A DNA stretch of 64,000 nt from Massilia sp. R2A-15. Lineage in GTDB: Bacteria > Pseudomonadota > Gammaproteobacteria > Burkholderiales > Burkholderiaceae_D. The stretch's first letter is position 1, and the number at the start of each line of letters is the position of its first letter. The stretch lies in assembly GCF_030704305.1 (NCBI RefSeq), contig NZ_CP131935.1, positions 496,001 through 560,000 of the forward strand. Reading direction: 5' to 3'. Below the pieces are notes generated by a model, which did not search any database, was not told the origin of the DNA, and worked only from the letters and a program-made list of their open reading frames with translations. Below, in pieces: positions 26,156-35,825 of the stretch. Both the position numbers and the translations under genes were made by a program.

Positions 26156-27616
26156 ATGAAACCATTTGAACCGAACCTGTCGACCCTGGCCGTGGCGCGC
26201 GATGTGCTGCTGACCCCGTTCGGGCTGGACGAAGCGAAACTGCTCAAGGCGCTCGGCACGATGTTCACGCACAAGGTCGACTACGCCGACCTGTATTTCC
26301 AATTCACCAAGAGCGAAGGCTGGAGCCTGGAAGAAGGCATCGTCAAGACCGGCAGCTTCTCGATCGACCAGGGCGTCGGCGTGCGCGCCATCTCGGGCGA
26401 CAAGACCGCGTTCTCCTACTCCGACGAAATCTCCGAAAGCGCGCTGCTCGAAGCGGCGGCGGCCACGCGCACCATCGCGCGCGTGGGCAACGGCAAGATC
26501 AAGGTCGCCACTTCCGCGCAGCCGACCGGCGGGCGCTCGCTGTACCTGCCGAACGACCCGCTCGACTCGCTCGACGCGACGGCCAAGGTCAAGCTGCTCG
26601 AGCGCGTCGAAAAAATGGCGCGCGCCAAGGACAATCGCGTGGTGCAGGTGATGGCGGGCCTGGCCGGCGAATACGACGTGGTGCTGGTGGTGCGCAGCGA
26701 CGGCGTGCTGGCGGCCGACATCCGGCCGCTGGTGCGGGTGTCGGTCACCGTCATCGTCGAACAGGACGGCCGCCGCGAGATGGGTTCGTCGGGCGGCGGC
26801 GGGCGCTACAACTACGGCTACTTCAGCGACGAGATCCTGCAGCAGTATGCGGACGAAGCGGTCAAGGCCGCCGTGGTCAACCTCGACGCGCGCCCGGCGC
26901 CGGCGGGGCCGATGACCATCGTGCTCGGACCAGGCTGGCCCGGCGTGCTGCTGCACGAGGCGATCGGGCACGGCCTCGAGGGCGACTTCAACCGCAAGGG
27001 ATCGTCGGCGTTTTCCGGCCGCATCGGCGAGCGCGTGGCGGCCAAGGGCGTCACGGTGGTCGACGACGGCACGCTGCAGAACCGCCGCGGCTCGCTCAAC
27101 ATGGACGACGAGGGCAACGCCACCCAGTGCACCACGCTGATCGAGGACGGCATCCTGAAGGGCTACATCCAGGACACGATGAACGCGCGCCTGATGAAGA
27201 TGCCCGTGACCGGCAACGCGCGGCGTGAATCGTTCGCGCACCTGCCGATGCCGCGCATGACCAACACTTACATGCTGGGCGGCGACAAGGACCCGGAAGA
27301 AATTCTCGCGTCGGTCAAGAACGGCCTGTATGCGGTCAATTTTGGCGGCGGCCAGGTCGATATCACCAACGGCAAATTCGTGTTCTCGGCCAGCGAAGCG
27401 TACATGATCGAAAACGGCAAGGTGACCTATCCGGTCAAGGGCGCCACGCTGATCGGCAACGGCCCGGACGTACTCAATCGCGTCTCGATGATCGGCAACG
27501 ACATGCGCCTCGACTCGGGCGTGGGCGTGTGCGGCAAGGAAGGCCAGAGCGTGCCGGTGGGCGTGGGCCAGCCGACCCTGCGCATCGAAGACGTGACGGT
27601 GGGCGGCACCGCGTAA
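26156..27616 (+). CDS. tldD: Metalloprotease TldD
   Basis: A 486-residue zinc metalloprotease subunit. With TldE/PmbA it forms a heterodimer that degrades unfolded peptides and, where present, matures modified peptides such as microcin B17. The metal-binding helix is LLHEAIGHGLEGDFNRKGSS. MPRMTNTYMLGGDKDPEEIL and the C-terminal LDSGVGVCGKEGQSVPVGVG are strong TldD signatures; the latter contains a conserved Cys downstream of the HExxxH motif. No tldE is present in the window. It starts 59 bp after the nitrilase gene and is probably co-transcribed with it. Confidence 0.96.
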   Translation: MKPFEPNLSTLAVARDVLLTPFGLDEAKLLKALGTMFTHKVDYADLYFQFTKSEGWSLEEGIVKTGSFSIDQGVGVRAISGDKTAFSYSDEISESALLEAAAATRTIARVGNGKIKVATSAQPTGGRSLYLPNDPLDSLDATAKVKLLERVEKMARAKDNRVVQVMAGLAGEYDVVLVVRSDGVLAADIRPLVRVSVTVIVEQDGRREMGSSGGGGRYNYGYFSDEILQQYADEAVKAAVVNLDARPAPAGPMTIVLGPGWPGVLLHEAIGHGLEGDFNRKGSSAFSGRIGERVAAKGVTVVDDGTLQNRRGSLNMDDEGNATQCTTLIEDGILKGYIQDTMNARLMKMPVTGNARRESFAHLPMPRMTNTYMLGGDKDPEEILASVKNGLYAVNFGGGQVDITNGKFVFSASEAYMIENGKVTYPVKGATLIGNGPDVLNRVSMIGNDMRLDSGVGVCGKEGQSVPVGVGQPTLRIEDVTVGGTA

Positions 27617-27761: not shown

Positions 27762-30566
27762 TCAGAACTTGTACGAAGCGTTGAAGTACGCCGTGCGGCC
27801 GCGCGCATCGTAGTAGCGGTCGTCATACCCAAATTGCTGGCCACGGTTGGCGCCCGACGTCGATGGCACGAACGGCGGCGCCTTGTTCGTCAGGTTCAAC
27901 ACGCCGATGGTGGCCGACCAGGTCTTGTTCGGGGCCCACACCGCTTGCCAGTCGATCGTCGAGTAGAAGCCCACTTCCTTGCGGATGTCTTCCTGTCCCG
28001 TCACGTTGCCGGCGGCGTCCAGCACGTCCACCGTGGTTTCCTGGTCGCGGTAGCCGGATTTGAAATTGATCGCCAGCGTATTGGTCCATTTGCCCGTTTT
28101 CAGGGTATTGCTCCAATGGCCCTGGTTGCGGAAGGTCACCGCGCCCAGTTCGGCGAAGTTGCCGATCGCCGAGTAGTAGGCGCCATCCCTTTGCAGCTGG
28201 CTCACTTCCCGCAGCATCCGTGTCATGTTCAGTTGCGAGGTCAGCAGGCCAATCGGGCTGCGGTAGCGGCCGGTGATTTCATAGTCGATCCCGGTGGCGT
28301 ACGACTTGCCCAGGTTCTGGTTGTCGGCGAGGAAGGCGAGGTAGTTCTTGCCGGTACCGATGTCCACCAGGGAGCCCCAGGATTTGGCGTACCGCGCCGG
28401 ATCGGCAAATACCACCTGTTCGGTCAACTGGCCAAACGTGTCGCGGATCTGCACATGCCACAGGTCGGCGCCCAAGGTGATGTAGCTGACCGGCTCGAAA
28501 CGAAAGCCCAGGGTCGCTTGCCTGGATTTTTCCGGCTTCAGTTCGGCGTTGCCGCCGGCAAGTTCATCGTACTGCCGGTTTCCTGGCTGGCACAGCGCAT
28601 TGTGGGCGTCTGCGACCGCCTGCAGCGCGGGCGTGCAGGTATATTTTTCGCTCGTGACGCCATAGCCCTGCTGGATCGCGTTCACCTGCGGCACGGTCGG
28701 CGCGTGGAAGCCGTTGCCAATCGAGCCGCGAATCATCAGGGTTGGTTTCGGGGTCCACTTGAAGCTGGCCTTGGCGGTCGTCGCGCTGCCGAAGTCGGAG
28801 TAGTGGTCGTAACGCAGGGCAGTGCCCAATTCGAGCGTCTTGTACACCGGGATGACCAGTTCGGCGAACAGGCCTTGCGATGTGCGCGATGCGTCGTACG
28901 GCAAGGAACTGGCGGGGTCGCCGAAGCGCTGGTCGCACTCGAGCGCGCCGCCGCACAGCACGCCGGCGGCCGGATCGGCGAGTTTGCCCTGGGCGAACAA
29001 GCTTGGGCGTGACGCGAAGGATTCGCGGTTGATGTTCGCGCCCACGCCGAGCATCAGGCCGCCGCCCTCCATGCGCATCAGTTCATGCGAGCCGTTGGCC
29101 GTCAGGGAATGCAGCTTGGAGATGCCGCCGTCCCAGTAGCCGGAATAGGTCGCCGCCTTGATCGCCGCTTGCGCCGCGGCGCTTTGCTGGCCCGGCCCCA
29201 CGAAGGGATCGAGCAGTCCGCCGCTTGTCAGGGCCTTGACGGCCAGCGCGCCGGGGTAACCGGAAATATTGCCCTTGACCTTGCTCTCCGAGAAGTTGTA
29301 CGACGCGCTGTAGTCCCATCCGGCGATCACGCCGCGCGAACCAAGCACCAGGCTGGCGAACTGCGCCTCGTCGTTCGAGGTCCGCGGGCCCATGTCGAAC
29401 AGGCGATAAAACGCCAGGCTGTCGCCGGTGATCCCGATCGGCTGCAAATACTTGACCGCCAGGGGCGAGCCGGCGGCGATGGAGATCGAGCCTGGCACCG
29501 GCGCGATGCGCGACACCTGCGTGCTTTTCGACAGCATGATGTCGGCGAACAGTTCCTGCCCGGCGTACTTGGCGGTGGCCGATGCCATGAAGTTGTCGCG
29601 CTTGCGCTCCGGGAAAATCTCCAGGTCCCTGACGAAGTCGTAGCCGCAATAGTCATCGGCCAGGCCCGACCCGTCGTTGTACGGTTCGATGACGCGGAAG
29701 GTCTTGGCCGGACAGGCGCCGGTGGTCTTTTGGTAGGGGCTGATCAGCTGGCCTTGATCGTCGAGCGCATTGGCGGGAATCGGGCTGGCGGAAAACTGCT
29801 GCTTGCGGTAGCGCTTGCCGTTGGCGGAGAAATCCACTTTCCCGGTATTGGCGAAGGAGCGGTCGACCGACCCAAGCTTGGTCCGCTCGTCGTGGCCAAA
29901 GGTGAGCATGACGTTGTAGCCGTCGGTGTCGAGCGAACCGAATCCCTTGGTGGCGCTGAGGCGTTTTTCGTACGCGCCATTTTGCGGATGGGAATACCCG
30001 ATCGTGACGTCGCCATCGGTCCGGTCGTGCTTGGTAATGAAGTTGACCACGCCGGCAATCGCGTCGGCGCCGTACAGGGCCGAGGCGCCGTCGGTCAGCA
30101 ACTCGACGCGATCGATGGCCGACAGCGGGATGGAATTGAGGTCGAAGCCGGCGGCAAATCCGGTCAGCGTCTGGCCGCCGAATTGCGCCAGGCGCTTGCC
30201 GTTGAGCAGCACGAGGGTGCGCGTCTCGCCGACGTTGTGGATGGATATTCCCGAGAAGCCGAAACTGCTTCCGCCGACAGAGGCCGACTCGCCGGTCGAG
30301 CCTTGCACGGTCGAGAGTTTCTTCACCAGGTCGGCCGCCGAGGTAACGCCCGATTCGCGAATTGCCGCGGCCGTCATCACGGTGACCGGCAGCGCGCCTT
30401 CGGCGGCAATGCGTTTGATCGACGAGCCGGTAATTTCCACCCGCTGGATCGGCGCGGCGGCTTGCTCTTGCTGGGCCTGCGCGGGCAGGGCGAGCATTGC
30501 CAAACCGGCGCACGCGCCGCCGGCGAACAGGCGGCGCAGCGATTGGGACAAAACAGTTTCTTTCAT
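27762..30566 (-). CDS. TonB-dependent receptor
   Basis: A 934-residue outer-membrane receptor. ATG at 30566 is chosen because GGAG lies six bases upstream on the minus strand; an in-frame TTG four codons earlier lacks support. The signal peptide (RRLFAGGACAGLAMLALPAQA) ends near residue 31. The plug begins IQRVEITGSSIKRIAAEGALPVTVMT and carries LLTDGASALYGADAIAGVVNFITK. The barrel ends NASYKF. Same subfamily as the receptors at 12516 and 35826. Divergent from the DAHP synthase leader region, with 224 bp between the receptor start and the leader-peptide start. Substrate unknown. Confidence 0.94.
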   Translation of the reverse strand: MKETVLSQSLRRLFAGGACAGLAMLALPAQAQQEQAAAPIQRVEITGSSIKRIAAEGALPVTVMTAAAIRESGVTSAADLVKKLSTVQGSTGESASVGGSSFGFSGISIHNVGETRTLVLLNGKRLAQFGGQTLTGFAAGFDLNSIPLSAIDRVELLTDGASALYGADAIAGVVNFITKHDRTDGDVTIGYSHPQNGAYEKRLSATKGFGSLDTDGYNVMLTFGHDERTKLGSVDRSFANTGKVDFSANGKRYRKQQFSASPIPANALDDQGQLISPYQKTTGACPAKTFRVIEPYNDGSGLADDYCGYDFVRDLEIFPERKRDNFMASATAKYAGQELFADIMLSKSTQVSRIAPVPGSISIAAGSPLAVKYLQPIGITGDSLAFYRLFDMGPRTSNDEAQFASLVLGSRGVIAGWDYSASYNFSESKVKGNISGYPGALAVKALTSGGLLDPFVGPGQQSAAAQAAIKAATYSGYWDGGISKLHSLTANGSHELMRMEGGGLMLGVGANINRESFASRPSLFAQGKLADPAAGVLCGGALECDQRFGDPASSLPYDASRTSQGLFAELVIPVYKTLELGTALRYDHYSDFGSATTAKASFKWTPKPTLMIRGSIGNGFHAPTVPQVNAIQQGYGVTSEKYTCTPALQAVADAHNALCQPGNRQYDELAGGNAELKPEKSRQATLGFRFEPVSYITLGADLWHVQIRDTFGQLTEQVVFADPARYAKSWGSLVDIGTGKNYLAFLADNQNLGKSYATGIDYEITGRYRSPIGLLTSQLNMTRMLREVSQLQRDGAYYSAIGNFAELGAVTFRNQGHWSNTLKTGKWTNTLAINFKSGYRDQETTVDVLDAAGNVTGQEDIRKEVGFYSTIDWQAVWAPNKTWSATIGVLNLTNKAPPFVPSTSGANRGQQFGYDDRYYDARGRTAYFNASYKF

Positions 30567-30736
30567 GGTCAACTCCAAAGTGGACGGCGGGGCCGCAGCG
30601 CCATGGCTGCGGTGCAGGGATCAGAGTGTTACATTCGGCGCTGGCGCACGACTGCGCTAGATCAAACGTCTCCGGCTTCGCCCGCCGTTGTGGGATCGGC
30701 GCAACCTGCCGCCTGGAAATGTGACGGACAAAGCGC

Positions 30737-30766
30737 TTGCCAAGCGCCGCACAATATTGCTATAGT
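30737..30766 (+). promoter_or_regulatory. Predicted sigma-70 promoter for DAHP synthase leader
   Basis: TTGCCA (30737-30742), 18-bp spacer, TATAGT (30761-30766). The -35 lies inside a perfect inverted repeat GCGCTT-GCC-AAGCGC at 30733-30747, which could be an operator. The leader-peptide ATG is 24 bp after the -10. Confidence 0.6.
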
Positions 30767-30790
30767 CGTCTCATCGATCCAGGAATTGCC

Positions 30791-30859
30791 ATGCACAGCG
30801 CGAAACTGTTTACCTGCTTTTTTTATTTTGGCCATGTCCAGCCCGAGGCGGCGGAGTAG
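30791..30859 (+). CDS. Phe/Tyr-rich attenuation leader peptide upstream of DAHP synthase
   Basis: A 22-codon reading frame with AGGA six bases before its ATG. Residues 6-13 are LFTCFFYF, that is four Phe and one Tyr codon within seven residues, followed by GHVQPEAAE and a TAG. Such a run of the pathway's end-product amino acids, placed between a promoter and an intrinsic terminator ahead of an aromatic-biosynthesis gene, is the classic arrangement of ribosome-mediated attenuation. Stalling at the Phe/Tyr codons (30809-30829) would leave bases 30859-30870 free to pair with 30895-30912 and block the terminator. Too short to be found by normal gene calling. The role is inferred from architecture. 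Confidence 0.8.
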   Translation: MHSAKLFTCFFYFGHVQPEAAE

Positions 30860-30902
30860 GCGGCAGGTTCACGCAGCAAGGACCGGATCCAGCAGAACTT
30901 CG

Positions 30903-30933
30903 AAAGACCGCCAGCGATGGCGGTCTTTTTTTT
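30903..30933 (+). terminator. Attenuator terminator upstream of DAHP synthase
   Basis: Ten-bp stem AAAGACCGCC / GGCGGTCTTT with loop AGCGAT, then T to 30933 (eight T in all). It lies 44 bp after the leader stop and 36 bp before the DAHP synthase ATG. Competing antiterminator: GGCGG (30859-30863) with CCGCC (30908-30912), plus AGGTTC (30865-30870) with GAACTT (30895-30900). Confidence 0.85.
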
Positions 30934-30969
30934 ATCCCGGCACACCCGCAACCGATTACGGAGAAACGC

Positions 30970-32028
30970 ATGCAACGCACCGACGACTTACGCATCCGCG
31001 AAATGAAGGAACTGACGCCGCCCTCGCACCTGATCCGCGAGTTCGCGTGCAGCGAGGCGGCCGGCGACACGGCGGCGGGCGCGCGGGTGGCCCTGCACCG
31101 CATCCTGCATGGCCAGGACGACCGCCTGATGGTGGTCATCGGCCCGTGCTCGATCCACGATCCGCGCGCGGCGATGGAATACGCGCGCCGCCTGGTGACC
31201 GAGCGCCGCCGCCTGGCGGCCGATCTGGAAATCGTCATGCGCGTGTATTTCGAGAAGCCGCGCACCACGGTCGGCTGGAAGGGCATGATCAACGACCCGT
31301 ACATGGACAACAGCTTCCGCATCAACGACGGGCTGCGCATGGCGCGCGAACTGCTGCGCGACATTAACGAGCTAGGCCTGCCGGCCGGCACCGAATTTCT
31401 CGACGTGATCAGTCCGCAGTACATCGCCGACCTGATCAGCTGGGGCGCGATCGGCGCGCGCACCACCGAGTCGCAGGTGCACCGCGAGCTGGCGTCCGGG
31501 CTGTCGTGTCCGGTCGGCTTCAAGAACGGCACCGATGGCAACATCAAGATCGCGGTGGAGGCGATCAAGGCGGCCTCGCAGCCGCACCATTTCCTGTCGG
31601 TGACCAAGGGCGGCCACTCTGCCATCGTGTCGACCAACGGCAACGAGGACTGCCACATCATCCTGCGCGGCGGCAAGACGCCGAACTACGACGCGGCCAG
31701 CGTCGAGGAAGCCTGCCGCCAGATGGCCGCGCAGGGCCTGGCCGCGCGCCTGATGATCGACGCCTCGCACGCGAACAGCTCGAAGAAGCCGGAGAACCAG
31801 GTGCCGGTGTGCGCCGACATCGCCGCCCAGGTGGCAGGCGGCAACGACCGCATCGTCGGCGTGATGGTCGAGTCGAACCTGGTGGCGGGGCGCCAGGACC
31901 TGGTGCCGGGCAAGGAACTGGTGTACGGCCAGTCGGTCACCGACGGCTGCATCGACTGGGAGCACAGCGTGCAGGTGCTCGACACGCTGGCCGCCGCGGT
32001 GCGCCAGCGCCGCCTGCGCCAGGAATAG
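30970..32028 (+). CDS. aroG: 3-deoxy-7-phosphoheptulonate synthase, class I (AroG type)
   Basis: Condenses phosphoenolpyruvate and erythrose 4-phosphate to DAHP, the first step of the shikimate pathway. 352 residues, typical for class I-alpha enzymes. Diagnostic blocks are VVIGPCSIHDPRAAMEYA, VYFEKPRTTVGWKG, WGAIGARTTESQVHRELASG, SCPVGFKNGTDG and the metal-site region GVMVESNLV. GGAG at 30960 gives the ribosome-binding site. It is preceded by a Phe/Tyr leader peptide and terminator, which suggests control by charged tRNA-Phe (and possibly tRNA-Tyr) on top of the allosteric feedback usual in this family. Which amino acid inhibits this isozyme cannot be read safely, though the leader favours Phe. 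Single-gene unit with its own terminator. Confidence 0.96.
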   Translation: MQRTDDLRIREMKELTPPSHLIREFACSEAAGDTAAGARVALHRILHGQDDRLMVVIGPCSIHDPRAAMEYARRLVTERRRLAADLEIVMRVYFEKPRTTVGWKGMINDPYMDNSFRINDGLRMARELLRDINELGLPAGTEFLDVISPQYIADLISWGAIGARTTESQVHRELASGLSCPVGFKNGTDGNIKIAVEAIKAASQPHHFLSVTKGGHSAIVSTNGNEDCHIILRGGKTPNYDAASVEEACRQMAAQGLAARLMIDASHANSSKKPENQVPVCADIAAQVAGGNDRIVGVMVESNLVAGRQDLVPGKELVYGQSVTDGCIDWEHSVQVLDTLAAAVRQRRLRQE

Positions 32029-32050: not shown

Positions 32051-32077
32051 AACCCGCGGCAAGCCGCGGGTTTTTTT
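32051..32077. terminator. Bidirectional intrinsic terminator
   Basis: Nine-bp stem AACCCGCGG / CCGCGGGTT, loop CAAG, with eight A before and seven T after. It serves aroG (+) and the convergent receptor gene (-). Confidence 0.92.
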
Positions 32078-32092
32078 ATGCGATCAACGCGA

Positions 32093-35000
32093 TCAGAACT
32101 TGTGGTTGTATTCCACGGAGAACTTGATTGCACGCGGGTCGGTGTAGCTGGTGACGCGGCCGTAGGTCGGCGACACCACGTTGGTGCCCGAGTTGTAGGT
32201 CTCGTCGATTGCCTGCACGGTCTGCTTGTTGAAGACGTTGAACACGTCCGCCTTCAGCGCCAGGCCCTTGACCATCGCCGGTGCGTACACCACGTTCATG
32301 TCGAGGCGGGTATCCCAAGGCAGGTTGCCCTTGGAACCGCGGTCGACGCGCACGCCGTTGCACCAGAAGTAGTTCGAGCCGTACGAGGTGTCGGTCGGGT
32401 GGTTGCCGATGCAGTTCAGCGGACGGCCGGCTGCGATCAGGGCGTTGCCGCCGACAGTCCACTCAGGCGCCACATTGTAGAAACCGTAGGCCTTGATCTG
32501 GTGGGTGCGGTCGTTCGGCAGCTTGCCGTAGGCGCCATCCATCAGCTCGATGCGGTCCCAGGTCGTCGTCGCGCCCGGATTGATCTGGGCGTTCTCGGAA
32601 CGGGTCTGGCCTTCGGTGTTGCCGACGCTGCGCGACCAGGTGTAGTTCAGCTTGCCGTACCAGCCGTTGCGCAGAGGGTGCTCGGCGAACAGGTCAACCG
32701 CGGCGTAGGTGCGCTTCGCTTCCGGGAAGCCCAGCATTTCCTTGGTCAGGTGGACCTTGGTGTAGGTCTTGCCGGCCAGTGCAGGATCGGCGTCGTTGAA
32801 GTCCACCAGGAAGTCGTTGTCCACGCCCGGGTTGAACGTGGCGCAGCCGAAGCCGCGCCATTTGGCGGCGCTCACGGTCGGGTTGGCGGCGAGCCACTTG
32901 TCGAAGCCGCGCTGGTCGCACATGTCGTCCAGCGTCGACTGCAGCTTGCGGTAGGTTGCCTTGGCGCCGATGTTGAGCGACGGCGACAGCTGCTGCTCGA
33001 AGCCCAGCGTCATCTCGTCCTGGAAGTTAGGCTTCAGGCCCACTGCGCTGACGGTCTTCGGATCCTTTTCCTGGTTGTACTCGTTGTTGGCCGAGAACGG
33101 CGCGGCGAGTGCTTTCAGGCCGGTCGGCAGGCCGTTGGCGTCCACGCCGGTGTAGCTGAAGGCCTGGCGGGTGAACAGCGAACGGCTGGCGCCGCGCACG
33201 CCGATGGCGGTCGGCACTTGCAGGTAGTAGCGGCCTGCGGTACCGAATACCTTCAGCGATGCGTCGCCGTTGACGTCCCAGGCAGCGCCCAGGCGCGGCG
33301 AGATCTGGTTCTTCATGTCGAGGTAGGTGACGCCCGAGCCGTTGATGTTCTTGAACTGCTCATCGCGCAGGCCGACCGTAACCAGCACGTCCTTGTTGAC
33401 CTGCCACTTGTCTTCGATGTACTGGGCCGACTGCTCCGAACGCACCGGGGTGGCGCTGTTGAAGATCTGCTGGCGGACCCAGTAACCCTGGGCGGCCAGC
33501 GGACCGGAACCGGCGGTCGCCACGGCGATCGGGGTCGGGCCGGCCAGTGCCAGCGGCGCTGCGACGGTCGGGTTCGACTGCTTCTGGTAGGCCCAGATGC
33601 TGCCGCCGGCGGTGATGAAGCCGGCGTTCACGCTGTCGAGCTTGTTCTGGTCGAAGCCGGCGCGCACGGTGTGGCTGCCGATCTTGTATTCCAGGTCCAG
33701 GCGGCCGGACTTGACGACGTCCTTGCCGTCCTTCGGCATGATGTTGCCCGACAGCGGCTGGTTGTTGTTGATTTCGAACGGACGGGTCGACGGGCTCGAC
33801 GTCACCTGGGCGATCGACTTGGACAGGTCGAACACGTCGTAGCCGTCGAAGGTGTTGTCGTGCTTCGAGGTGCTGCGGCCGAACAGGGCGGTCAGGGTCA
33901 GGTCGTCGGTCAGGTTGCCGGTGTACTTGAGGATGGCTGCGTTGGCGCCCACGCCCAGGGTGTTGGCTGGGTCGTTATGGTAGTGTTCGCCCGAATTGAT
34001 GGTCGAACCGTGCGCGCGGGTGGCGTAGTCGTAGCTCGAGTAGTAGGCGTCGCGCTTGTCGTCGTCGCCGATGCCGGTGAATTCCAGGCGGTGGCTGTCG
34101 CTGATGTTCCAGTCGATCTTGCCGGTGAAGCGGGTGACCTTGTCGTTGATCTCGCCCCAGCCCCACTTCGACAGCGAGTTGGCGTCGCTGGCGGTGCTGC
34201 GCAGCGCGCCGACGCGGCTGGTGTCGGTCGAGGACTGGTCGGCCGCGATGAACATGAACAGCTTGTCCTGGATGATCGGGCCGCCGACGTAGGCGCCGAC
34301 ACGGGTTTCCTGGACCTTGTTGTCTTCGCGGCGCAGGCGCAGCTTGCCGTCGGTCGCGGTGTTGGTCGGTGCGCCGGTGTTGGCGTAGTAGAAGTCCTTG
34401 TACTTCGAGCGCAGGTTGCGCGGCGTGATGCTGGCGGTGGCGCCGGCTTCCCAGTTGTTGGTGCCGCTCTTGGTGGTGATGTTGACCACGCCGCCGATCG
34501 AACGGCCGAATTCGGCGCCGAAGCCGCCGGTCAGGATCTGTGCCTGGGCAATCGCGCCGAATGGCAGCTCGGACGAACCGAGGCCGGTCAGCGGGTTGGT
34601 GACCGGGAAGCCGTTGACGTAGTAGGCGTTCTCGGACGCGCCGCTGCCGCCGAACGAGGCGCCGGCGTAACGGTAGTCGGCGCGCGTGGTGTTCGGCGCC
34701 AGCTGGATGATCGAATCGACGCTCGGGGCGATCGGCAGCTTGGCCAGTTCCTTGGCGGTGAAGGTCGCGCCGTTGTTGGTGTTCGACACGTCGATGCGGC
34801 GGCGCTGGCCACTCACCTGCACGGTCTGGATGGCGCTGGCGGCGGCGAACGACACGTCGGCGCCCTGGCCGATGGTCACTTCGACTTCATTCGACTGGAC
34901 CACCTTGTCGCCCTGGACCAGGTCGACCTTGTAGCGGCCCACCGGCAGCGCGGTGGCCTGGTAGCGGCCCGCTTCCGGGGTGACCCGGCGCTGCAGGTTG

Positions 35001-35170
35001 GTGTCGAGGTTGCGGATCACGATGGCCGTGCCCTGGGCGGCGTCCACGCGGCCGAAGATCGTGCCGGTGGCGTTGGACTGGGCCATCACCGGCGCGACGA
35101 CGGCCAGCGACAGGGTGGCGGAAGCGAAGGCCAGCGACAATGCCTGGACTAAGACGGTTTTTCTGAACAT
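32093..35170 (-). CDS. TonB-dependent receptor, Oar-like
   Basis: A 1025-residue outer-membrane receptor and third member of the Oar-like group. ATG 35170 (MFRKTVLVQALSLAFAS) is chosen: GGAG lies five bases upstream on the minus strand and a signal peptide ending PVMA at residue 30 follows. The open frame runs 28 codons further upstream without family sequence. Residues about 33-110 form the carboxypeptidase-regulatory-like domain (FGRVDAAQGTAIVIRNLDTN). The plug has RRRIDVSNTNNGATFTAKEL and GFGAEFGRSIGGVVNITTKS. The barrel ends YNHKF. Very similar to the protein at 5076 in signal peptide and plug, so the two are recent paralogues. Divergent from the receptor at 35826. Confidence 0.95.
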   Translation of the reverse strand: MFRKTVLVQALSLAFASATLSLAVVAPVMAQSNATGTIFGRVDAAQGTAIVIRNLDTNLQRRVTPEAGRYQATALPVGRYKVDLVQGDKVVQSNEVEVTIGQGADVSFAAASAIQTVQVSGQRRRIDVSNTNNGATFTAKELAKLPIAPSVDSIIQLAPNTTRADYRYAGASFGGSGASENAYYVNGFPVTNPLTGLGSSELPFGAIAQAQILTGGFGAEFGRSIGGVVNITTKSGTNNWEAGATASITPRNLRSKYKDFYYANTGAPTNTATDGKLRLRREDNKVQETRVGAYVGGPIIQDKLFMFIAADQSSTDTSRVGALRSTASDANSLSKWGWGEINDKVTRFTGKIDWNISDSHRLEFTGIGDDDKRDAYYSSYDYATRAHGSTINSGEHYHNDPANTLGVGANAAILKYTGNLTDDLTLTALFGRSTSKHDNTFDGYDVFDLSKSIAQVTSSPSTRPFEINNNQPLSGNIMPKDGKDVVKSGRLDLEYKIGSHTVRAGFDQNKLDSVNAGFITAGGSIWAYQKQSNPTVAAPLALAGPTPIAVATAGSGPLAAQGYWVRQQIFNSATPVRSEQSAQYIEDKWQVNKDVLVTVGLRDEQFKNINGSGVTYLDMKNQISPRLGAAWDVNGDASLKVFGTAGRYYLQVPTAIGVRGASRSLFTRQAFSYTGVDANGLPTGLKALAAPFSANNEYNQEKDPKTVSAVGLKPNFQDEMTLGFEQQLSPSLNIGAKATYRKLQSTLDDMCDQRGFDKWLAANPTVSAAKWRGFGCATFNPGVDNDFLVDFNDADPALAGKTYTKVHLTKEMLGFPEAKRTYAAVDLFAEHPLRNGWYGKLNYTWSRSVGNTEGQTRSENAQINPGATTTWDRIELMDGAYGKLPNDRTHQIKAYGFYNVAPEWTVGGNALIAAGRPLNCIGNHPTDTSYGSNYFWCNGVRVDRGSKGNLPWDTRLDMNVVYAPAMVKGLALKADVFNVFNKQTVQAIDETYNSGTNVVSPTYGRVTSYTDPRAIKFSVEYNHKF

Positions 35171-35825
35171 GAAATCTCCAAGTGGGAAGTCAATGCACGC
35201 GCTTGCGCATGCATATTTTCTTTTTTTGCCAAATATGTATGAAACCAACTGCATCTAACGGAAAGACAGAGCAATCTCATCCAAATAGCGGTGAAATGTA
35301 AGTTGTACATTTCTGCGCCGCACGTATCTGACCATCCGGCTGGCGAAGTGTCAATACGCAAATTCACTATGCGGATCGCATACAACAGATCGCTCCGGCG
35401 TCACATTCCCGCGGCGGAAGAAATTGGCGCAATGCAGCAATGCGGCTCTGCGCGCGCCGCGCCGTCAACGATGCCCGCTGCGGCGCGCGAGGGGTGGTTG
35501 CGACCGGTTTTTTGGTGCGACGCGGCAAAAATTGCGCCGGCAGCAGCCAGGGCGCGTCTTCCCGCGCAGGCGGCGGCGCCGGTGGGGAATTCATCGGTCC
35601 GCCCGAACCTTGCGACAACATTAAACATGGGCTCGCAGGAGGGCGAATACGTTGTTTTTTTGCACTCGGGTCAATCCGTATTTGACAGTCTTTACAGCAA
35701 ATGTTTCCATGCCGCACCGGCTGTGCATATATGGTTAAAAATATATTGCTTAGCGGAAATATCGATCGACGACCGGGACCCCGTGCGAAGAAGATGTTTT
35801 ACGAAAACAAAGAGGAGATAGTGGA
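35171..35825. other. Intergenic region between two divergent receptor genes
   Basis: 655 bp. It is AT-rich at both ends (promoter-like) and GC-rich in the middle. A palindrome TATGCG-GAT-CGCATA lies near 35369-35383. TTGACA at 35682-35687 is a possible -35 for the rightward receptor gene, with no convincing -10. Open frames at 35291-35821 (+) and 35367-35717 (-) have no signal, domain or family-like composition and are not called. Confidence 0.55.

Follow-up and report, generated by a model that had tools for sequence, protein, structure and literature searches.

What is the role of the short, phenylalanine-rich frame and the terminator-like hairpin that stand directly ahead of the DAHP synthase gene aroG? 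Working from the window, i.e., the whole 64,000-nucleotide stretch of DNA under analysis, and from the corresponding loci of relatives, we conclude that this leader is very probably a classical ribosome-mediated attenuator coupling aroG to the supply of charged tRNA-Phe. An earlier note on the same DNA (hereafter, the original prediction) had already proposed that an aromatic leader attenuates aroG. The comparison of relatives supports this class of mechanism well and makes it probable that the antiterminator uses a different strand from the one first named.

Anatomy of the aroG leader

The promoter, ribosome-binding site, 22-codon leader frame (MHSAKLFTCFFYFGHVQPEAAE, which contains LFTCFFYF), T8 terminator, and 36-nt gap before the gene that made up the original prediction were all recovered at their proposed places (Table 1). 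The promoter is the single promoter-like site detected in positions 30400-31100, where 0.1 would be expected from shuffles, and a similar pair of boxes was found by pattern upstream of the leader at 52 of the 72 aligned loci, being absent by pattern from the other 20. Between leader and gene, an intrinsic terminator is predicted: its stem occupies 30902-30929 and its T8 30926-30933, and it ends 36 nt before the aroG ATG at 30970, a spacing that leaves little room for a separate promoter. The CCGCC at 30908-30912 doubles as the left arm of this terminator and as part of the antiterminator. The product of aroG scored 582.9 bits against NF006723 (cut-off 568) and 539.7 bits against TIGR00034.

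Table 1 Features of the aroG leader region, in window coordinates
Feature	Position	Strand	Basis
Sigma70-type promoter TTGCCA-18-TATAGT, TG before the -10 box	30737-30766	+	Promoter pattern scan
-35 box TTGCCA; 18 nt; -10 box TATAGT	30737-30742; 30761-30766	+	Sequence
Shine-Dalgarno AGGA of the leader frame	30781-30784	+	Sequence
Leader frame, 22 codons, MHSAKLFTCFFYFGHVQPEAAE-stop, TAG at 30857-30859	30791-30859	+	Sequence; frame kept in relatives
Control codons F T C F F Y F (TTT ACC TGC TTT TTT TAT TTT)	30809-30829	+	Alignment
Outer helix, left side, ACCTGC (partner 30863-30868)	30812-30817	+	At least 4 of 6 pairs in 41/42 leaders of the window's type
Strand 1, GCCATGTCCAGCC, left side of predicted protector hairpin 1:2	30831-30843	+	Fold; pairing in relatives
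Strand 2, GGCGGCGGAGT, antiterminator left side	30847-30857	+	Folds, pair counts, permutation tests
Right side of hairpin 1:2	30850-30861	+	Fold
Outer helix, right side, GCAGGT	30863-30868	+	Pairing with 30812-30817
Strand 3, antiterminator right side, ACTTCG (30897-30902) and CCGCC (30908-30912)	30897-30912	+	Folds, pair counts
Intrinsic terminator 3:4, 12-bp stem, 4-nt loop, T8	30902-30933	+	Prediction
aroG, DAHP synthase (3-deoxy-7-phosphoheptulonate synthase), 352 aa	30970-32028	+	NF006723, TIGR00034

Directly 3' of aroG (32052-32071), a GC-rich hairpin is bordered by an A-run on one side and seven T on the other, so that the gene looks like a single-gene unit. The gene is flanked by two minus-strand frames resembling TonB-dependent receptors, and the nearest upstream plus-strand frame is tldD-like, all named by eye (the frames beside aroG are 26156-27616, 27762-30578, and 32093-35254).

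Chance and signal in the window and its genome

Taken singly, the features of the leader are not striking; their combination is. Specifically, the 701 bases from 30400 to 31100 hold two terminator-like sites against 1.0 from shuffles, and the fold of 30780-30940 has a z-score of -1.79, with 9 of 200 shuffles as good. A detector was set to require a terminator preceded by a short ORF with at least four Phe or Tyr residues among eight codons. Over both strands of the 64 kb, it fired in 4 of 508 overlapping segments. These correspond to two places, the aroG leader and the 3' end of a TonB-receptor-like frame at ~38.4 kb. At the latter, on the plus strand, the TonB-receptor-like C-terminus is followed by a strong terminator, AAAAACCGGCCGATGCGAATCGGCCGGTTTTT.

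We also built a covariance model from 72 relatives, window included; it gave one good match in the window's own 5.03-Mb genome, namely the aroG leader (E 1.3e-19). The next matches had E 0.16, on the other strand of the same terminator, and then 0.21 elsewhere, i.e., no further copy of the element was found in this genome at E below 0.1. Leader and terminator before aroG are not a product of chance.

Distribution among relatives

A scan of genome contigs returned at least 589 relatives, the best 80 of which were analyzed. They include Rugamonas, Pseudoduganella, Janthinobacterium, Duganella, Massilia, Telluria, Collimonas, Herminiimonas, Noviherbaspirillum, Undibacterium, Oxalicibacterium, Herbaspirillum, Caballeronia, Paraburkholderia, Burkholderia, and metagenome-assembled genomes. 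Among these best 80 of at least 589, a leader with a CCGCC/GGCGG-type terminator precedes aroG at 78 loci, the exceptions being L046 and L071. In a same-family sample, for which 66 loci were examined from 116 genomes searched, the detector fired at 62 (26/26 and 36/40). Preservation of the leader frame in relatives, on which the original prediction had been staked, is thus found in both sets, which overlap in species. Other genomes of the genus carry the leader in four of four cases (L003 and L006; L004 and L005 by eye).

The four same-family misses differ in kind. L126 has no leader and is probably the same genome as L046; for L144 only a divergent paralog was matched; L145 lies at a contig end, with 108 nt; and L152 has a weak leader with FRFWF that the detector missed. 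We consider L046, L071, and L126 cases of apparent loss, which offer a natural contrast. In L046 and L071, aroG stands without a leader directly behind a tldD-like gene (with a 36-nt gap in L046; judged by eye in L071), and the attenuator is accordingly dispensable there. The tldD-like end that adjoins aroG in L046 is the same as that of the window's upstream tldD-like frame. A different departure is seen at L092 (Candidatus Burkholderia humilis), ~184-37 nt upstream of aroG, where the aromatic run has one T more than in relatives and the leader frame consequently runs past the terminator.

Beyond the family, the detector fired at 11 of 46 loci from the same order (7/26 and 4/20) and at one of 29 aroG loci in a class-level sample, one of the 29 being from the same order. 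AroG matches were present in 75 of the 100 genomes from the order and in 80 of the 114 from the class sample, and the detector counts refer to the loci fetched. Overall, the element typifies one family and turns up again in other families of the order.

The covariance model gave a concordant picture, with matches in 55 of 60 same-family genomes (none in G014, G035, G036, G043, and G061). In 54 of the 55 matching genomes, with places compared by eye, the best match fell within ~110 nt upstream of AroG. In G034, the match was on a different contig from the AroG match; in G025, G038, and G057 a weak match fell on the other strand of the same place, and weak matches elsewhere were obtained at G044:C9 (E 5.6e-4) and G049:C29 (E 0.0072). 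The second DAHP synthase of the window's own genome (L002, G000:C1:3596394-3597416, 53% identity) had neither leader nor terminator in the 530 nt tested upstream.

Codons in the aromatic block, RNA in the tail

The leader alignment comprises 72 loci, giving 69 distinct rows and 160 columns, of which 24 are invariant. Counting codons from the end of the aromatic block, the last codon (0) encodes Phe in 69 of 69 rows and codon -2 in 66, while codon -1 between these framing Phe codons is Tyr in 61, Trp in 7, and His in 1. One relative of the genus, L005, has no Tyr in the block at all. Of the signal originally proposed, Phe and Tyr together, the comparison favors the Phe part, Phe being invariant at the last codon, while Tyr is often replaced. 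Since Phe alone is invariant, we prefer Phe over "Phe and Tyr" as the signal; Tyr may still have a share in it.

Entropies by codon position separate the block from the tail that follows. Codon -1 (0.11/0.47/1.08 at first, second, and third position) and codon -3 (0.93/0.94/1.24) vary in a coding-like manner, and codons 0 and -2 scarcely vary at any position. In the tail the order is reversed, as at codons +2 (1.84/0.47/0.38) and +6 (1.36/1.45/0.00), although codon +5, a Pro codon, is coding-like against this trend (0.11/0.64/1.75). On balance, the aromatic block appears to be kept as codons, and the tail as RNA rather than as peptide. The window itself illustrates the latter, with the tail FGHVQPEAAE in place of the FSxSxPxAVE of its relatives. 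By eye, it has one G more and one C less than they do between the last Phe codon and GGCGG, and these two compensating one-base shifts change the tail amino acids and leave the RNA, TCCAGCCCGAGGCGG, as it is. Strand 2 follows the last Phe codon at a spacing of exactly 20 nt in 65 of 69 rows, and in 38 of 69, window included, it starts inside the leader frame, 10 nt before the stop. The locus thus has a short frame, presumably translated, with a run of codons for an amino acid product of the pathway.

A conserved predicted antiterminator and its terminator

The original prediction paired GGCGG at 30859-30863 with CCGCC at 30908-30912, extended by AGGTTC (30865-30870) with GAACTT (30895-30900). 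Both complementarities are present in the sequence, yet as left strand of the antiterminator this GGCGG is probably wrong: the conserved strand is 30847-30857, and the second GGCGG comes from an extra G that follows the stop in the window. Strand 2 of the window pairs with 30897-30902 and 30908-30912 in 11 bp with a five-base bulge, and the whole predicted fold with this antiterminator has -23.4 kcal/mol. Among the 69 distinct sequences, the originally proposed structure forms its outermost pair in 6, its five-pair helix in 80.0% of cells, and its AGGTTC/GAACTT part in 60.4%, and for the first and last of these values we ranked it second to 30847-30857. As a whole it beats shuffles (69.8% versus 68.3% paired, 0 of 500 as high; for the covariation score, 5 of 500 as high) and its own slid versions, and in some leaders AGGTTC/GAACTT may extend the antiterminator on its inner side.

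Three states were modeled by folding for all 69 leaders, and the front of a ribosome stalled at the last Phe codon was assumed to lie 13 nt beyond the point where that codon starts. For a ribosome stalled there in the absence of strand 4, the GGCGG/CCGCC core was predicted in the minimum-energy folds of 69 of 69 leaders; for a ribosome at the stop, in 0 of 69. In the full-length leader, the terminator was the lowest-energy structure for 68 of 69 when the ribosome stood at the stop, likewise for 68 of 69 when there was none, and still for 62 of 69 when it was stalled. The terminator being favored at equilibrium even then, the antiterminator would have to act kinetically, by forming first, as is likewise accepted for trp leaders. 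When 85 further loci were folded from just before strand 2, the antiterminator core was predicted in 81; L114, L172, and L182 lacked it, and L177 had no strand-2 motif. In unmasked folds of 24 divergent leaders, the terminator arm was paired with the leader in 15 and not in 9. The models thus point to an alternative antiterminator that excludes the terminator and would be freed by a stalled ribosome.

Compensatory changes in both stems had been suggested as a check of the original prediction. The GGCGG(U)/(A)CCGCC core (30847-30852 with the terminator arm) is paired in 99.8% of cells, and with the partners slid by +3 columns 98.1% of the 216 cells (of 414) that are not lost to gaps still pair; scarcely varying, the core is uninformative for covariation. 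The second half of the antiterminator does vary, as GGAG/UUCC, GAAA/UUUC, GGAGAA/UUCUUU, and, in the wider set, other combinations. Across 75 representatives, native combinations of strands 2 and 3 averaged -7.37 kcal/mol versus -6.06 kcal/mol for swapped ones (0 of 10,000 permutations as good); for this varying half (helix B) in the 34 representatives of the alignment, the values were -6.99 and -6.00 kcal/mol (0 of 10,000), while two decoys gave 7722 and 8122 of 10,000. The fit of strand 2 to strand 3 was also better than in all permutations for the 24 very divergent leaders (0 of 10,000), and in other subsets 0 to 7 of 10,000 permutations did as well; the runs on the 75 representatives and on subsets omit L177, and the use of representatives lessens relatedness in these tests and does not remove it. 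These results indicate that the second half of the antiterminator co-varies with its partner. In the terminator, compensation amounts to a single pair that shows a double change from A-U to G-C, in 5 of the 69 sequences including the window. Pair counts were made on hand-written structures, folds and permutation tests by scripts. An RNAalifold consensus contained the terminator and a four-pair hairpin only, because alternative pairings cannot both be drawn.

A predicted protector hairpin and an outer helix

Between the last Phe codon and the stop, we predict a further element that the original prediction had not named, the protector hairpin 1:2. If the RNA is cut before strand 3 and no ribosome is present, strands 1 and 2 are predicted to pair in 60 of 69 leaders. 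Once strand 3 is added, still without strand 4 or a ribosome, the antiterminator becomes the minimum in 38 of 69, the window not among them, so that 1:2 would not hold strand 2 by stability alone and would also have to act by forming first. Covariation in hairpin 1:2 was not above shuffles (86.5% versus 86.0% of cells paired, 43 of 500 as high).

In the 42 leaders with the window's type of end (TAG type), the Thr codon and the codon after it pair with the bases following the stop, in variants such as ACCTGC/GCAGGT, ACCGGC/GCCGGT, and ACCCGT/GCGGGT. Six pairs are formed in 22 of these leaders, five in 15, four in 4, and three in 1, and none of 20,000 permutations reached the native mean; judged by this test, the outer helix of the window's type does co-vary. 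It offers an explanation for the Thr codon (ACC in 38 of 69 rows) that breaks up the run of Phe and Tyr codons. For leaders without a TAG-type end, the outer helix is only suggestive: 39 of 10,000 permutations did as well for 18 representatives, one of which, L039, was counted as TAG type in the 42-leader test, and across all 34 representatives the figure was 0 of 10,000, but a reversed decoy reached 115 of 10,000.

Proposed mechanism and alternative readings

Under the attenuation mechanism, RNA polymerase would start ~7 nt after the -10 box and transcribe the leader. When Phe is plentiful, the ribosome would pass the FYF codons to the stop and cover strand 2, leaving strand 3 free; the 3:4 terminator would then form, and transcription would end 36 nt before aroG. 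When charged tRNA-Phe is short, the ribosome would wait at the Phe codons and cover strand 1, and the freed strand 2 (30847-30857) would pair with strand 3 (30897-30912) before strand 4 is made, so that polymerase would read into aroG. If the leader is not translated, 1:2 would be expected to form first, with termination as the default.

Several other readings can be set against this one. The same device could respond to general aromatic supply, i.e., Phe and Tyr and partly Trp, rather than to Phe, a reading that we regard as possible, if somewhat unlikely. It would suit a gene that feeds all three aromatic pathways, as well as the makeup of the block, where 68 of 69 distinct rows have Tyr or Trp at codon -1 and 37 of 69 have Tyr at codon -3, and where the best eight-residue segments of 88 loci (3 also in the alignment) hold 341 F, 179 Y, and 24 W. 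However, the framing positions, Phe in 69 and 66 of the 69 rows, set Phe apart as the one invariant residue, and 6 of the 88 segments have no Tyr. We think it improbable that attenuation is only part of the function and that the terminated leader RNA (~160 nt) or the peptide also acts in trans. The strong sequence conservation of the leader, with its 24 invariant columns of 160, would fit such a role, and peTrpL is a precedent, the trp leader RNA and peptide of Sinorhizobium working in trans (PMC7298713). Yet the tail amino acids change at +2, at +6, and by frameshifts while the RNA stays, which argues that the peptide is not what is kept, and pairing can explain much of the conservation of the RNA.

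A more radical alternative would treat the frame as a short ORF without meaning that happens to lie in U-rich RNA, and the hairpin as a terminator and nothing more, ending upstream or background transcripts. Such RNA, read in frame, easily gives Phe codons, the detector has a false match at one other place in the window, and single features are not much rarer than in shuffles. Against this stand the conservation of the frame, the spacing, and the co-varying alternative pairing, together with the fact that the same detector fires at one of 29 class-level aroG loci, and we find this alternative scarcely credible. Ribosome-mediated attenuation in response to charged tRNA-Phe thus remains our preferred reading.

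Within this preferred reading, the choice of Phe codon stands out. The framing Phe codons (30821-30823 and 30827-30829 in the window; alignment columns 16-18 and 22-24) are TTT in 135 of 135 cases, while TTT accounts for 99 of 517 Phe codons across 80 aroG genes, and outside the family TTC is commoner in the aromatic run, e.g., in L123 and L156. Phe has one tRNA. The bias toward TTT is therefore not predicted by selective charging, which leaves either slow decoding of UUU or a reason at the RNA level. In the passages of PMC1183508 that treat it, selective-charging theory needs several isoacceptors. As a tentative proposal, which we hold to be rather unlikely in this full form, an old attenuator of shikimate entry in Oxalobacteraceae and parts of the order would read Phe via two framing UUU codons, where slow wobble decoding sets the gain of the sensor or a second role of the leader RNA fixes the bases.

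If the attenuation mechanism holds, one family and parts of its order would set shikimate inflow by tRNA charging, where E. coli uses TyrR on the same gene. The leader would then offer a compact system in which to study how the choice between synonymous codons tunes an attenuator served by one tRNA, and a control point relevant to engineering aromatic production in these bacteria. The covariance model and the leader frame also provide a ready annotation for a small frame that recurs ahead of aroG.

Comparison with known systems

The predicted logic of the leader is shared with attenuators of the trp type (RF00513). In trp leaders, strands pair as 1:2, 2:3, and 3:4, and the control codons stand just before strand 1. 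RF00513 systems carry Trp codons and precede the trp operon, whereas in the aroG leader strand 2 begins inside the leader frame; the family scored 16.1 bits in the window against a gathering score of 41. Closer in signal is the pheA attenuator of E. coli and its kin (RF01859, Phe_leader), likewise with consecutive Phe codons and an attenuator before an aromatic-pathway gene. That system controls pheA, whereas the element in the window precedes a DAHP synthase gene, and with 21 bits against a gathering score of 55 RF01859 did not reach threshold in the window, so that the two are not recognizably the same RNA family. No Rfam family reached its gathering threshold in the window or in 17 relatives.

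Predictions in print for Vibrio and Thermus give the idea of an attenuator before a DAHP synthase gene, which we take aroAI to be, a precedent. Table 7 of PMC1173090, in entries taken from Merino's database, gives putative attenuators for aroAI-alpha-Y > tyrA in Vibrio parahaemolyticus and V. vulnificus and for aroAI-beta > tyrA in Thermus thermophilus. Here too, the attenuator is predicted upstream of an operon whose first gene encodes DAHP synthase, but the organisms belong to other phyla or classes and the operons include tyrA, and the passages of PMC1173090 concerned give no leader peptide or structure.

Our literature search, mostly at title and abstract level, found no aroG leader in Betaproteobacteria, and we do not claim its absence from print. 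The main comparative study, Vitreschak et al. 2004, reportedly covers mainly gamma- and alpha-proteobacteria. No such leader occurs in the relevant passages of PMC2965389, PMC1262725, PMC1183508, PMC1173090, PMC4448311, PMC11878033, PMC4603805, and PMC7011215. The proposed mechanism is thus a textbook one, in a gene and a bacterial group for which we found no description.

In E. coli, according to passages of PMC11878033, pheA and trpE have a leader with an attenuator, and aroG is repressed by TyrR, as the original prediction had noted, as well as by GcvB. In the window's genome, the TyrR-type helix-turn-helix PF18024, the single profile used, reached 24.6 bits at best against a cut-off of 27. 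Control of aroG in E. coli falls to a protein repressor and a small RNA, whereas the aroG of the window is predicted to be governed by its leader attenuator.
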